This document shows, in pieces, positions 7,996 to 26,687 of a DNA stretch of 33,242 bases. The notes under the pieces are model-generated. The model worked only from the letters and a program-made list of their open reading frames with translations, ran no database searches and was not told where the DNA came from. This stretch comes from Nitrospinota bacterium (GTDB lineage: Bacteria; Nitrospinota_A; UBA7883), in assembly GCA_029879765.1 (NCBI GenBank), contig JAOUPQ010000005.1, forward strand, positions 1 to 33,242, given 5' to 3'. A program made the translations under genes and the position numbers. How positions within the stretch are numbered: the stretch's first letter is position 1; each line of letters starts with the position of its first letter.

Positions 7996-9471
7996 TTATA
8001 GCCTGATAAATTCACCCTGGTAATTGTAGCATTTATAGAATGTAAATTCCCTAATCAACTCCCCCTGGCGCTCTATGCGGATAAAACCGTCCTTCTCCAC
8101 CCGTTGGAAATGTCGCCCTATTGTGGCGATATCGTCCCTGCCGGTTTCCGTGACATACAGCGCCGGGGCGCCGGGGAGTTTTTCCACCGACCCCAGATAT
8201 CCGAACCGTCCCTTCCCGTTGGAGATATACGCGGGCCGGTGCCCTTTGGTGTAATAGGTGAGCAGGGTGGATATCTGGTAACGGTTGGCCAGGATGAAGG
8301 CGTTGGCTCCCAGTTCGGCAAGCCGCCTGTCCGATTCGGCCGCCAGGGCACGCCAGCCAAATATCCTGCGCGATATCTCATATTTTTTCGGCATGGGGAG
8401 GACAGGTTCCACAATCTGCACATGGGCGTATACCAGCAGGGCTGCGGCGAAGAAAAGAGAGAACCTGTAGCCCATGCTGGTCAACCGTCCCAAAAAGGCG
8501 CCCCGCTCCGAGTATATGGCGACCATAAACGGGGTGGCGGCGATGATGGTGAAATACATGGGAACCCCCCAGTTCCCCTCCATCCGCGTCCGGGCGCTGT
8601 TGAGCAGGAAGAAGCCGAACAGGCTTAGGGATATGACCCCCAGGTACAGATAGTCGTCCCTTCGCTCCCGAAGACCCCGGATGGACACTCCCACCATGGC
8701 GGCGATCATGAAGAAGAAGACGAACACACCGGTGATGGCGGCCTGGGAACCCCAGAACTCCCCCATGGTCAACAGAAATCCGGGATTCTCCCCCGCCAGC
8801 CCATGGGACAGCTGGAACCGGAACGAGATCCAGTCGCGCTGATAGTTCCACAGTATCACCGGAGAAAAGATGATCATGGAGAGCGCAAAGGCAAGATATG
8901 GCTCCTTCCGAAAGAGCCATGCCCTGTTTTCTTCCGATACGATAAGGAATACAAGCAGAGCCGGAGCGAACAGGGCGGCGGTGTATTTGGAAAGGAGGGC
9001 CAGCCCGAAAAAGAACCCCAGGGCATACCAGTAATGGGGCTGCTGGGTGTTGACCAATCGGGCGCCGTAATACACTGTCATCGCCCAGAAAGTGAACAGA
9101 GGGGAATCAGGGGTCATCACCAAAGATCCGAGGGTGAACATGGGGGTCAGATTCAGGAGAACGACAGCCCAGAAGGCCGGTTTGCCTTCGTTAAAGACTT
9201 CCCTGGCGGTGAGATATATGAAATAGGAACTGGCCGCGCCGCAGAGGATGGCGCCGAGCCGGATCATCCTTTCCGATTCCCCCAGAAGGCCAGTGGCGGT
9301 GATGATCCACGCCACCATGGGAGGATGGTCGTAGTATGACATGGAAGGGTGCTGGCCCCACAGCCAGTAGTACCCCTCATCCAGGGAAAGCTCGAACCAC
9401 CCCGCGAATGCTAACCTGAAAAGGGAGACAGCGGCGATGAATAATAGGGTGTGCGCCTTTGTCCGGTCCAC
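7996..9471 (-). CDS. PMT/ArnT-like membrane glycosyltransferase (GT-C fold)
   Basis: FELSLDEGYYWLWGQHPSMSYYDHPPMVAWIITATG is the conserved first loop of PMT_2/ArnT-like transferases; multiple TM segments follow. Confidence 0.85.
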   Translation of the reverse strand: MDRTKAHTLLFIAAVSLFRLAFAGWFELSLDEGYYWLWGQHPSMSYYDHPPMVAWIITATGLLGESERMIRLGAILCGAASSYFIYLTAREVFNEGKPAFWAVVLLNLTPMFTLGSLVMTPDSPLFTFWAMTVYYGARLVNTQQPHYWYALGFFFGLALLSKYTAALFAPALLVFLIVSEENRAWLFRKEPYLAFALSMIIFSPVILWNYQRDWISFRFQLSHGLAGENPGFLLTMGEFWGSQAAITGVFVFFFMIAAMVGVSIRGLRERRDDYLYLGVISLSLFGFFLLNSARTRMEGNWGVPMYFTIIAATPFMVAIYSERGAFLGRLTSMGYRFSLFFAAALLVYAHVQIVEPVLPMPKKYEISRRIFGWRALAAESDRRLAELGANAFILANRYQISTLLTYYTKGHRPAYISNGKGRFGYLGSVEKLPGAPALYVTETGRDDIATIGRHFQRVEKDGFIRIERQGELIREFTFYKCYNYQGEFIRL

Positions 9472-9475
9472 TTTT

Positions 9476-10366
9476 CTACCAGGCGGGCCATATGTAGTAA
9501 AAACCGCTGGTCATCCCGGCCCTGGCCAGATGCGTATTCGCCTTTCCGTCCAGCAACCAGTCCGCAAAACCCCGCCTCTCCTCCTCTTCCACCACCTCCG
9601 GGTCCGGATTCATTTTGGCCATACGGGCGGCGGCTTCGATAGAGTCTCGCAGGTTCCCCATTTTGTCCACCAGGTTCAGCTCCACCGCTTCCCTGCCGGT
9701 GAATATTCGTCCGTCCGCCATGCTTCGCACATGGTCCGGCTCCATTTTTCTCCCCTTGGCCACATCCTCGATGAACTGGTCGAGGATATCGTCGGCCACG
9801 CCTTGGAGCAGCTGGCGGTCATCGTCGCTCATGGGGCGGTATGGAGATCCGATATCCTTGAACTTGCCGGTTTTGATCACCATGGGGCTCAAGCCTATCT
9901 TGCCGAGGAGTTTTTCTATGTTGGAGAGATTCATGATCACGCCGATGGAGCCTGTGACCGTGCCTGGATTGGCGAATATGACGCTGCACGGGGCCGCCAC
10001 GTAGTAACCGCCGGAAGCGGCCACGGCGCCCATGCTGGCCACCACAGGCTTCTTCTTCACCGCCCGCTCCACTTCCTCATAGATCTCCTGGGAAGGGGCC
10101 ACGGCGCCGCCGGGGCTGTTGATCCGCAGCACGATGGCCTTAACGGAGTCATCCTCGACCCATCTTTTCAACTGGCTGTTGATTTCTTCCGAGTCGAGGA
10201 TGATGTTCTCCACCCGCACCAGGGCCACCTTGTCGCCGGATATGTCGATTCCTTCGCCGGTGGCGAATATGATAAGCCATATTCCCACCAGGAAGAAAAC
10301 CGCCATGACACCAAAAAAGATAACAATCGACCTGGCCGAATTCCGGCCCTGCCCAGATTGGGTCAT
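9476..10366 (-). CDS. sppA: Signal peptide peptidase SppA
   Basis: N-terminal TM anchor; VKAIVLRINSPGGAVAPSQEIYEEV, KKPVVASMGAVAASGGYYVAAPCSVIFANPGTVTGSIGVI. Confidence 0.93.
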   Translation of the reverse strand: MTQSGQGRNSARSIVIFFGVMAVFFLVGIWLIIFATGEGIDISGDKVALVRVENIILDSEEINSQLKRWVEDDSVKAIVLRINSPGGAVAPSQEIYEEVERAVKKKPVVASMGAVAASGGYYVAAPCSVIFANPGTVTGSIGVIMNLSNIEKLLGKIGLSPMVIKTGKFKDIGSPYRPMSDDDRQLLQGVADDILDQFIEDVAKGRKMEPDHVRSMADGRIFTGREAVELNLVDKMGNLRDSIEAAARMAKMNPDPEVVEEEERRGFADWLLDGKANTHLARAGMTSGFYYIWPAW

Positions 10367-10423
10367 AAAAAACTCTCCATTTCGAAAGGACGCCCTGCCG
10401 CAGCAGGCCAGAGACGGCCTGGA

Positions 10424-12205
10424 TTACTCGGAGGCGGATTCACCCGATTGACTGGTTTCCTCCGCGCCATAAGCGCTTTCGCTCATATCACCAGACTCAT
10501 CCGCATCAGCGGAGGCGCCCAGCTCCGACACAACCTGCTCCGGGGACAGCCCCTCTTCAAACGCCTTTATCGACAATCCGATCTTGCGGTTCGCCAGATC
10601 GACCTTGATTATCTTCGCCGTCACCACCTGCTCCAGCTCCAGAGCCTTGCGCTGGCTTTCGTCGCCCGCGGAGGAAAACTGGGAGTTATGGATAAGCCCT
10701 TCGATCCCGCTCTCGATCTCGGCGAAGGCGCCGAAGTTGGTGATCTTGACTATTTTGCAGCTCACGTCCGCTCCCACCGGATATTTCTCCTCGGCGCTCA
10801 TCCACGGATCCTTTTCAAGCTGCTTGACACCCAGGGAAAGCCGTTCGTTTTCCTTGTCGATGTTGAGCACCATGCAGCGCACCTTGTCGCGCTTTTTCAA
10901 GACTTCCGAGGGATGCTTCACCTTCTGGGTCCAGCTCATGTCGGAAATATGAATCAAGCCGTCCACGCCTTCTTCGAGTTCCACAAAGGCGCCGAATTCG
11001 GCCACGTTGCGGATTCTCCCCTCCACGATGGAGTTGACCGCGTATTTCTCCTCGATATTGTCCCAGGGGTTGGGCTGGATCTGTTTCATTCCCAGGGAGA
11101 TACGCTTTTTCTCCTTGTCAATGGCCAGCACCACCGCTTCCACCGAATCGCCCACGTTGACTATCTTGCCCGGATGCCTCACATGCTTGTTCCATGTCAT
11201 CTCGGAGATATGCACCAGGCCTTCCACTCCCTGCTCCAGTTCCACAAAAGCGCCGTAGTCGGCGATGGACACCACCTTGCCGGTGATCCTGGCGCCGGCG
11301 GCGTATCGCTCCTCCGCATAGCTCCAGGGGTCGGCCGTGGCCTGCTTGTAGCCCAGGGAGACCCGCTCCGATTCCCTGTCGAACTTGAGCACGATCACTT
11401 CCACCTGGTCGCCGATGTTGAACATCTCGGAAGGATGGTTCACGCGGCCCCAGGACATGTCGGTGATATGCAGCAACCCGTCGATCCCGCCCAGGTCGAT
11501 AAATGCGCCATATTCGGTGATGTTCTTCACGATACCGATGACTTTCGCCCCTTCGGTCAGCTGGGCCAGGGTGGTCTCCTTTGTGGCCTTGCGTTTTTCC
11601 TCCAGGATCGCCCTGCGGGAAAGGACGATGTTCCCCCGCTTCTTGTTCATCTTTATGATCTTGAAGTTGTGCTTTTCGCCCACCAGCTTGTCCAGGTTCT
11701 TTATGGGCCTAAGATCGATCTGGGAACCGGGCAAGAAGGCCTTGAGCCCTATATCCACGGTCAATCCACCCTTGATCTTGGAGACTATGACACCTTCGAT
11801 GATCTCGTCGTTATCATATTTCTCCGCCATGATCTCCCAGACCCGGATACGGTCCGCCTTCTCCTTGGAAAGCACAACCATCCCCTCGGCGTCCTCGCTC
11901 TTCTCCAGCAGAACCTCCACCGGGTCGCCTTCCGCCAGATCCTGGGCCTTGATGCCGAACTCCGACAAAGGAATGATACCTTCGCTCTTAAATCCTATAT
12001 CCACAATTACCGAGTCGTCAGTCTTCTTCACCACCCGGCCATGAATGATTTCCCCCTGTTTGAAGGAAACAATGCTCTGGTCTATAAGGTCGGCGTATTC
12101 ATCCACCGAAAAAGCGTCGTCGCTTTCCCCCTGTTCCATATCGAAACTATCTGCGTAGTCCGATTCCTTTACTCTTCTTGTCCCGTCTTTCAATGCAGCT
12201 GCCAT
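10424..12205 (-). CDS. rpsA: 30S ribosomal protein S1, six S1 repeats
   Basis: Six recognisable S1 domains, e.g. GIVKNITEYGAFIDLGGIDGLLHITDMSW, GKVVSIADYGAFVELEQGVEGLVHISEMTW, GRIRNVAEFGAFVELEEGVDGLIHISDMSW. Confidence 0.96.
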   Translation of the reverse strand: MAAALKDGTRRVKESDYADSFDMEQGESDDAFSVDEYADLIDQSIVSFKQGEIIHGRVVKKTDDSVIVDIGFKSEGIIPLSEFGIKAQDLAEGDPVEVLLEKSEDAEGMVVLSKEKADRIRVWEIMAEKYDNDEIIEGVIVSKIKGGLTVDIGLKAFLPGSQIDLRPIKNLDKLVGEKHNFKIIKMNKKRGNIVLSRRAILEEKRKATKETTLAQLTEGAKVIGIVKNITEYGAFIDLGGIDGLLHITDMSWGRVNHPSEMFNIGDQVEVIVLKFDRESERVSLGYKQATADPWSYAEERYAAGARITGKVVSIADYGAFVELEQGVEGLVHISEMTWNKHVRHPGKIVNVGDSVEAVVLAIDKEKKRISLGMKQIQPNPWDNIEEKYAVNSIVEGRIRNVAEFGAFVELEEGVDGLIHISDMSWTQKVKHPSEVLKKRDKVRCMVLNIDKENERLSLGVKQLEKDPWMSAEEKYPVGADVSCKIVKITNFGAFAEIESGIEGLIHNSQFSSAGDESQRKALELEQVVTAKIIKVDLANRKIGLSIKAFEEGLSPEQVVSELGASADADESGDMSESAYGAEETSQSGESASE

Positions 12206-23695: not shown

Positions 23696-23764
23696 ATTAC
23701 GATATGGGCCATGCGGGGTGTGGTGGAAAAGGCCCTCGTCGATTTTGACACTCATGGATATATA

Positions 23765-25288
23765 ATGCGCATGATGTCCATTCTCAGGTTCTGTCTCATC
23801 TTTTTTTTCGCGGTGGGGCTTTGTGGCTGCGCCAGAAGCGTCAATGGCGATATCAAGGCGGATACCTTCGCGAAACTCCAGACGTTGCGTGTCGAGCGCA
23901 AGGATCTGGTGGAAAACAAGCTTTTGCGTATGAGGGAGAAGGTGCGAGATTCGGTCTCCAACCCGGCGCTGGTTGGAGCTTTTGACAGGTTCCTCTCCAT
24001 GGTGGGGCAGGGAGGCTCTGTTGGTCGGCTGGATGAACTCGAAGACAAGGAGTTGGACCGGGAGTATCTGGAGCAGTATTACTATTTTTACGATATCCTT
24101 TTTATCGACCGGGACGGGCTGGTGTTCTATACCATCCGTCGCGAATCGGATCTGGGAAAGAACCTTTTTCGCAGTGAGTTATCCTCCACATTGCTGGCGC
24201 GAAAGCTGAAATCGGAGCCGCAGACCGATTTTGTGGATTACCATTTCTACTCCCCGTCCAAAGAGCCGGCCTCGTTTTTCATCGCTCCAGTACAGCGTTC
24301 GGGCAGGCTGGCCGGATGGATGGTGTTTCAGTATTCATCCTCCGCCTTGAAGGAAATCATGGCCCAGGAAACCGGCCTGGGAAAAACCGCGGAGGTGTAT
24401 CTTGCCAACGCGAACAAAGTGATGCTCACCCAATCGCGCCTGTTGCCGCAAAACACCGTGCTGCATCAAAGGGTGGAGACCCAGGCGGTGGAGATGGCCG
24501 GCAAAATAGGCCAGGGCAACGATATCATCCTCGATTACAGGGGGGTGCGGGTTTTCAGCTCCTTCGAGAAGTTCCAGTTCGCCGGGGCGGAATGGATCAT
24601 CATCGCCGAGGTGGACGAGGAGGAGGTGATCACCCAATGGTTTTCCGACAATCGGGAGTATTTTTACAAGAAGATATTCAAACGGCTGCCCGCCGGGGCG
24701 CCCATCGAGCCGAGGCCGGAATTGCTGTATCAGGAGAGCGTGAAGGTGGATATCAATGAGTATGGCGCCGGGCGAGCGGGGGATGTGATCTCCACAGCCG
24801 GAGTCACCACCTGCACGGCGGTGGTGGTTTATTATCCGGGCAAATTCGCTTTCATGGGGCACATTTATCCGCTGGACGACGTCTATTTCAATAGCTGGGA
24901 AAAGCGTATCCTGGGGGCGTATTACGGGACGTTCGGTGGTGTCCATGGAGACAAGGTGGCGGATCTTATGAGCAAGATGCTCCATGAGATCACCTATTTC
25001 AACATATACCCTTCAGAAACAAGAAAGCTGGAAGCGGTGTTGTTGGCCACCCATCTGGAAAGCTTCAAACGGATCACGGACAGGCTGCTGGACTCCGGGC
25101 TGCTTCTTTCCCAGATTAGGATAGCAACCATGGCGGACATGAAGTATCTGGATGTGGCTGTGGAAGTGGACAAGTCTTCGGTGGTGGCCCACTGGGTGGG
25201 CTCCGGCGGGAAAGCGGGATGGACCAACGCCGCCGCCGCCCCCACCCTGGACAGGCTGGTGAAAGATGTCCTGGGCTATGAGACATAG
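23765..25288 (+). CDS. Predicted lipoprotein with dCache-like sensor domain and C-terminal CheD-like domain
   Basis: MRMMSILRFCLIFFFAVGLCGCARS (signal/lipobox-like). Cache-type segments YDILFIDRDGLVFYTIRRESDLGKNLF, QETGLGKTAEVYLANANKVMLTQSRLL, IILDYRGVRVFSSFEKFQFAGAEWIIIAEVDEEEV. C-terminal VKVDINEYGAGRAGDVISTAGVTTCTAVVVYYPGKFAFMGHIYPLDD resembles the CheD core. Confidence 0.75.
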   Translation: MRMMSILRFCLIFFFAVGLCGCARSVNGDIKADTFAKLQTLRVERKDLVENKLLRMREKVRDSVSNPALVGAFDRFLSMVGQGGSVGRLDELEDKELDREYLEQYYYFYDILFIDRDGLVFYTIRRESDLGKNLFRSELSSTLLARKLKSEPQTDFVDYHFYSPSKEPASFFIAPVQRSGRLAGWMVFQYSSSALKEIMAQETGLGKTAEVYLANANKVMLTQSRLLPQNTVLHQRVETQAVEMAGKIGQGNDIILDYRGVRVFSSFEKFQFAGAEWIIIAEVDEEEVITQWFSDNREYFYKKIFKRLPAGAPIEPRPELLYQESVKVDINEYGAGRAGDVISTAGVTTCTAVVVYYPGKFAFMGHIYPLDDVYFNSWEKRILGAYYGTFGGVHGDKVADLMSKMLHEITYFNIYPSETRKLEAVLLATHLESFKRITDRLLDSGLLLSQIRIATMADMKYLDVAVEVDKSSVVAHWVGSGGKAGWTNAAAAPTLDRLVKDVLGYET

Positions 25289-25319: not shown

Positions 25320-26687
25320 TTAACTTTCCTCCTCCGGGTTTGGCAGATGGACATAGAACACGGCGCCACTTCCCGGTTGGGACTTGACCCACATCCTTCC
25401 ACCATGGGCGGCGATAATCTCGTTGATCAGCGAAAGCCCTATGCCCCATCCGGAGCTTCCATCTGCGTTCGCTTCCCGAATGTCGGCGGAGGCGGCGGTC
25501 ATGATTTTTTTTGTCTGCGCTTCATTCATCCCAACGCCGCTATCCTCCACCGCCAGCGAGGCTCCTTCCTCTTCCGGGCAGTATACCCGCACGCTCCCCC
25601 CCGCGTCGGTATATCGGACGGCGTTGGACACCAGATTCTGAATCACATGGGCAAGCAGGGCCTCGTCGGCGAAGACTTCCGTATGTGGGGGGACATCGTT
25701 TTGCAGTGTCACCTTTCGTTTCTGGGCCAGGGGGCGCAATGCGTTAAACGCTTTTTCGGCAACGGCGCCAAGCTGTGTCCATTGTCGCTCTTTGAGCATC
25801 TCGCCCCCCTGTATCCCCTTAAGCCGCATCAGCAGGCCGATGATCTCGCGCATCCTGTCCACGTTATGGTTAAGGCTGTCCATCATCTCGTTTTTTCGGG
25901 CTTCGGTCAGATCGTCCCCGAAGTTTTTCATGATGTCCACCACCGCCTTAATGCTCGACAGAGGGTCCCTCAGGTCGTGAGAAACCAGGGAGACAAGCTT
26001 GTCCTTAAGCTGTGTCGCCGCCACCGCCTCGATTCTGAAGTCCTCCAGTTCGTAGGCCAGGGCGAATTCCTTTCTGGTGTGCCTGTCGCTGAAGTATGAA
26101 ATCACCAGGCTCAGCGACGCCGCAGAGATCATCAGGAATATCTTCTCCGCAGACTCCGCCATCCCCGCCCCCAGCACGATCAAAAGGTACACCACAAGCT
26201 GCGCCACCAGGAACAGAGTGGCGCCCAGGGCGAAATGGAAAAGCAGACGACACAAGGGAACGCAAAAAACCACCAGCATCATTCCGGTGTAATACATCAC
26301 TTCAGGGGATTGGGGCGACATATAGTCGATGGCCAATACGCTGGCTCCGGCGGCCAAAACCAGAGTGGACAAAAGCGCCTGGGCCAAAAAGCCGCGAAAT
26401 TTTTCCTGATATGAAAAACCCAATATTCCGATGGCCATGGGGATTATCAGGGCGAACCTGATGAAAAACGCCACCATGGCGTGCTCGGACACCTTTTGCA
26501 GATCCACCAGGAAAAACAGCGCATAGATCACCACCCCCACCAAAAGGCCGACCCGGACCGCCCGCTTGGTCTTCTCTGCATAATGGAGCTGAAATTCCTC
26601 CTCAATGGCAGGATCGTTGAATTCTAGCCGGAACAGCCCTTTTTCCATACGGATCTGTTCTGATCGGGGTGTTTTTCCAAACATCAA
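25320..26687 (-). CDS. Membrane-bound sensor histidine kinase
   Basis: Several N-terminal TM segments; His[26 protein letters not shown]; HATPase [73 protein letters not shown]. Confidence 0.93.

Follow-up and report, generated by a model that had tools for sequence, protein, structure and literature searches.

A predicted Nitrospinota lipoprotein in which a dCache sensor domain is followed by a CheD-like domain with a conserved Thr-Cys-His motif

CheD is an enzyme that modifies chemotaxis receptors in the cytoplasm, where it acts as a chemoreceptor glutamine deamidase. The locus described here raises the question of whether a domain of this kind can also be exported and joined to a sensor. 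The window analyzed, 33,242 nucleotides in length, was an entire contig (JAOUPQ010000005.1) of the 3.04 Mb assembly GCA_029879765.1 from a Nitrospinota bacterium. An open frame on its forward strand (23765-25288, +) encodes a protein of 507 residues; the mechanically called open reading frame (ORF) begins at 23711, and homologues favour a start near 23765. The domain order was a predicted signal peptide with a lipobox-like motif, a dCache_1 domain and a C-terminal domain of 186 residues (24728-25285, +) that was named by neither Pfam nor NCBIfam. This full-length architecture was common to five Nitrospinota members and to a second phylum. A previous sequence-only reading had proposed an exported CheD-like domain under a Cache module, and the frame, the lipobox and the Thr, Cys and His codons were all located where it had placed them. 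The results below support that proposal, catalysis being predicted, and we consider that the protein is probably, though with considerable room for doubt, a sensor-linked extracytoplasmic cysteine amidohydrolase or deamidase.

The structure of the C-terminal domain was predicted with AlphaFold from 13 homologues (mean predicted local distance difference test, pLDDT, 86.8; predicted template modelling score, pTM, 0.83). In a Foldseek search of the Protein Data Bank (PDB) with this domain model, the top match was the T. maritima CheD 2F9Z (2f9z_C; E 1.3e-8, probability 1.00, template modelling scores 0.60/0.70), so that the predicted structure showed the CheD fold anticipated in the sequence-only reading. 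The next structural families were NTAN1, YfiH and CNF1, and the domain thus shares the alpha/beta sandwich fold of the CNF1/YfiH-like cysteine hydrolase superfamily. The domain had been poorly modelled in an earlier full-length model built from six sequences, for which the Foldseek matches listed were nearly all Cache ectodomains; the model based on 13 sequences solved this problem.

Sequence profiles pointed in the same direction. The best match of the family profile in the PDB was again CheD (2f9z_C, E 0.045), with Thr, Cys and His in register. Against genomes, the matches of this profile outside the family with E < 0.02 were 11 CheDs, 10 of them confirmed by Pfam and the eleventh (L119) identical to a confirmed one (L118), together with one secreted CheD/NTAN1-like protein. 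In the reverse search, a profile of 20 full-length CheDs was run against 3508 ORFs from the window and the fetched loci. CheD and family genes are over-represented in these loci, and it is therefore the ranking that counts and not the E-values. Below the CheDs came the secreted CheD/NTAN1-like protein at E 7e-5, next the window protein at E 0.0012 and then its relatives from Nitrospinota at E 0.016-0.12; the first unrelated ORF (E 2.8) was ranked amid members from the second phylum. Three independent tests (structure search, family profile and CheD profile) therefore place the domain next to CheD. Local hhalign comparison of the family with CheD gave a probability of 84-87% limited to the first 38-40 columns, thus indicating that the sequence evidence is strongest in the N-terminal half of the domain. 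The profile comparison suggested in the sequence-only reading was consequently favourable in both search directions and negative for the Pfam CheD profile itself, PF03975, which gave no match on the window contig at E ≤ 10. As PF03975 begins just past the catalytic His, its silence is uninformative on the active-site half. A phmmer match in the PDB to an unrelated effector (E 0.4), concanavalin matches in the PDB (E 0.5 and up) and a weak PP2C match in Pfam were rejected as noise; an alignment of CheDs taken from Pfam-match coordinates, in which the active site was missing in most rows, was not used.

Conservation among the 13 homologues was examined for the residues of the predicted triad. 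Cys350 (24812-24814, +), the predicted nucleophile, and His366 (24860-24862, +), the predicted general base, were invariant, and the predicted third residue, Thr344 (24794-24796, +), was Thr in 11 homologues and Ser in two. With respect to Cys350, Thr344 is situated at -6 and His366 at +16. Strictly conserved Cys and His, as found here, characterize the CNF1/YfiH-like cysteine hydrolase superfamily, and in NTAN1 the substitutions C75A and H92A abolish activity (PMC7022378). The variation between Thr and Ser at -6 also matches the fold, since the equivalent residue is Thr in CheD and Ser (Ser69) in NTAN1 (PMC7022378). Two more residues were invariant in all 13 sequences: Asp371 (24875-24877, +), five residues past the His and at +21 from the Cys, and the family-specific His430 (25052-25054, +), located roughly at the position of the CheD GG motif. 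The mature chains of the five Nitrospinota proteins contain no Cys other than Cys350, or its equivalent, and the lipobox Cys; lacking a partner residue, Cys350 is unlikely to be locked in an internal disulfide. When the loose expression T.G[VLI][GTS][TS]C.{15,16}H was run over the same 3508 ORFs, with their excess of CheD and family genes, 50 matches were obtained, which a crude motif label divided into 37 family members, 11 CheDs and 2 unlabelled ORFs, and every match outside the family had a GG[AGS] motif, as CheD does. Judged on these sequence patterns, the Thr/Cys/His motif is not a product of chance.

The predicted signal peptide of the window protein (23765-23830, +) displayed a single hydrophobic peak, at residue 4, and terminated in the lipobox-like LCGC, whose Cys22 (codon 23828-23830) is the predicted lipidated residue. 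By inspection and hydropathy, one N-terminal hydrophobic segment and a lipobox-like Cys occurred in the five Nitrospinota homologues (endings LCGC, LNGC, LYGC, LLSC, and LPLSC), in agreement with the lipoprotein export suggested previously. In the second phylum, lipobox-like and cleavable-type signals were mixed, the segment ending in TASC in L102 and being signal-like without a lipobox in others; overall, of the members whose N-terminus is complete, most had a lipobox or another N-terminal signal-like segment. Hydropathy revealed no second transmembrane segment (TM2) after the dCache domain in the Nitrospinota proteins, nor was a signalling domain of methyl-accepting chemotaxis proteins (MCPs) present in the window protein, whereas the first and second transmembrane segments were clear in MCPs from the same genome and from another genome. 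The region between the two domains (about residues 285-321; 24617-24727, +) was a helical linker, with model helices at 285-295 and 297-307 and no hydropathy peak above 1.4, in contrast to the MCP paralogues, which have TM2. Two weak peaks (1.5 and 1.59) in second-phylum proteins fell within domains and look like buried strands. Since there is a single N-terminal hydrophobic segment and no TM2, the CheD-like domain is expected on the outer side of the inner membrane, in the periplasm.

The sensor region recognized in the sequence-only reading proved to be a genuine Cache domain by both profile and structure. Residues 57-281 (23933-24607, +) matched Pfam dCache_1 (PF02743) with E 9e-11, although the score of 42.2 bits was slightly below the 45-bit cut-off. 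In the full-length model dCache structures headed the Foldseek list, with matches to dCache ectodomains of chemoreceptors and kinases (best E 2.2e-9). The domain was 29-37% identical to the dCaches of tandem-dCache MCPs encoded in the same genome; these MCPs continue into TM2, HAMP and a cytoplasmic signalling domain, whereas the window protein has the CheD-like domain instead. The dCache_1AA motif (of the Y....R.WY type) was absent in all members scanned with a regular expression for it, which was checked against a paper only in part.

Homologues over the whole length occur in two genomes of the same genus (69-73% identity); identity falls to 43% for a genome from the same order, to 41% for one from the same class and to 36-38% for one from another phylum. 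The C-terminal family was detected in 5 of 24 Nitrospinota genomes and in 7 of 80 genomes of the second phylum, the latter with eight genes. Two largely overlapping sets of 385 and 386 genomes yielded only the known members plus weak matches, the strongest of which were nearly all CheD. A scan of genome contigs gave nothing with the single protein as query and six loci with the domain alignment. As the family's dCache domains group in a single clade (Shimodaira-Hasegawa-like approximate likelihood ratio test, SH-aLRT, 96), the architecture most likely arose once. No description of a Cache, CheD and lipoprotein architecture, or of CheD-domain fusions, was found in the open-licence literature.

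In the window the gene is preceded by that of a B12-binding radical SAM protein and followed by a convergent sensor histidine kinase gene (25320-26687, -). The kinase gene is seemingly retained in both congeneric genomes (L008 and L009), and a ProS-like ORF occupies the upstream position in these two genomes. The absence of che genes nearby, noted in the sequence-only reading, held for the window, where no chemotaxis gene was seen among the neighbouring genes, and did not hold for the family as a whole: in L142 a dCache chemoreceptor gene on the same strand is separated by about 100 bp from the homologue downstream of it (L142:6526-8043 and 8143-10884), with a BBP2-family porin gene before and a NorB-like gene after. 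In L139 a cheA-cheD pair was located about 5 kb from the homologue, with unrelated genes between.

Other CheD-related proteins were observed among the fetched loci. Nitrospinota CheDs fused to a response-regulator receiver domain were present at L148:2625-3569 and L139:13084-14022, directly after a CheA gene in L139 and after a CheA-resembling ORF of 722 residues in L148. The CheR methyltransferase encoded at L150:4203-5321, the only such frame in which the CheR domain was checked, carried an N-terminal stretch weakly matching the CheD profile and is possibly a degenerate CheD-CheR fusion; similar frames of 377-408 residues occurred in several Nitrospinota genomes, and one of them, in another genome, exceeded the Pfam cut-off and was in-frame with its neighbours. 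An unrelated genome (L124; L145:5695-6357) encodes a stand-alone protein of 222 residues that carries a signal peptide and whose Thr-Cys-His core is CheD/NTAN1-like (Pfam N_Asn_amidohyd, E 0.0025). It is a second candidate for an exported CheD fold, and no homologue of it was found in 147 related genomes.

With these data, the following mechanism can be proposed. As a lipoprotein, the protein would be tethered to a membrane at the periplasmic face, where the N-terminal dCache would sense a small ligand and the CheD-like domain, as a putative cysteine amidohydrolase of the CNF1/YfiH-like fold, would deamidate an extracytoplasmic Gln or Asn side chain; Cys350 would act as nucleophile, His366 as base and Thr344 would orient the His, and the dCache may gate the enzyme or bring it to its substrate. 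Such a protein would have originated when a chemoreceptor-type dCache ectodomain gained a CheD-like domain in place of TM2 and the signalling module. A link to chemotaxis is suggestive, because of the identity between the dCache and those of same-genome MCPs and of the MCP gene upstream of the L142 homologue. Chemoreceptor ectodomains are only one candidate substrate, since surroundings are unrelated in most genomes; muropeptides or peptides would be another class, by analogy with YfiH and NTAN1. The more specific idea of a ligand-gated enzyme whose deamidation targets are Gln or Asn residues in periplasmic domains of chemoreceptors or of other sensors, and through which receptor adaptation would take place outside the inner membrane as well, is in our opinion decidedly unlikely.

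Several observations weigh against the enzyme proposed here. Taken one by one, the E-values between the profiles and CheD are modest (about 1e-4 to 0.05), so that much weight falls on the fold. The CheD landmarks GGA and GGxxGR, downstream of the active site, were absent when searched for with regular expressions, the lone match, in L108, being judged spurious. A catalytic thiol is unusual in an oxidising compartment. Long or cut N-termini make the exact starts of some second-phylum members uncertain, and no chemotaxis gene adjoins the family gene in most genomes, the surroundings being unrelated in the genomes examined other than L142 and L139. Because the landmarks past the active site are gone and PF03975 misses the domain, it is CheD-like and not CheD proper, lying outside the CheD family as defined. 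Both share the fold, the Thr-Cys-His with the -6 spacing, the N-terminal VxIxEY strand and the (G/A)H motif; in contrast, CheD is a stand-alone cytoplasmic protein of chemotaxis clusters with the His at +17, whereas the window protein is predicted to be exported, is fused behind a dCache, has the His at +16, and belongs to a family encoded outside che clusters in most genomes. We regard the family as a variant of the CNF1/YfiH-like cysteine hydrolases that is closest to CheD.

The loss of GGA and GGxxGR, together with the family-specific invariants D371, H430, and W477, which hint at an altered role, would also fit a repurposed, non-catalytic fold that only binds a protein, such as a chemoreceptor ectodomain, and keeps the Cys-His pair for structure or metal. 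This is unlikely, though still appreciable, as, at a domain identity of 26-43% between members from two phyla, few features apart from the exactly spaced Thr/Ser-Cys-His are retained, and the conservative change from Thr to Ser is known in the fold. A different substrate within the same enzyme class is considered if the domain were a cell-wall or small-molecule amidase, hydrolysing an amide group of periplasmic muropeptides, peptides or free amino acids and not one of a protein side chain, an explanation that overlaps with the one we propose. YfiH has the same fold (6dzd, E 3e-4) and was solved with UDP-MurNAc-L-Ser (7w1g); NTAN1, second on the Foldseek list (6A0E), acts on short peptides (PMC7022378) and shares with the family the fold, the type of triad and, in most Nitrospinota members, the TTC before the nucleophile, whose two Thr hold the amide in NTAN1. 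Nevertheless, CheD was the closest structure and the sole one reached by a sequence profile, and TTC is replaced by STC in L011 and by STC or GPC in second-phylum members, which makes such an amidase quite unlikely. NTAN1 is moreover eukaryotic and intracellular, and no counterpart was identified here of the C-terminal region appended in NTAN1 for N-terminal Asn; YfiH and the CNF1-type hydrolases, alike in superfamily fold by Foldseek, gave weaker matches, YfiH being zinc-binding and cytoplasmic and CNF-type domains occurring in toxins, neither of them with a Cache domain. A merely coincidental resemblance to CheD, in a Cache lipoprotein of the ordinary kind whose C-terminal domain has no relation to that enzyme, would agree with the silence of Pfam, NCBIfam and PF03975. 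This reading is hardly credible when structure search, both profile directions and conservation all point to CheD, and when PF03975 does not cover the active-site half.

If the proposed sensor-linked deamidase is correct, the bacterial envelope would be a place where deamidation of proteins or peptides can be coupled to a sensor. The protein would offer a small system for direct tests of ligand control over a CheD-like enzyme fold, and the family illustrates that the Pfam CheD profile, which starts past the catalytic His, can overlook such relatives.
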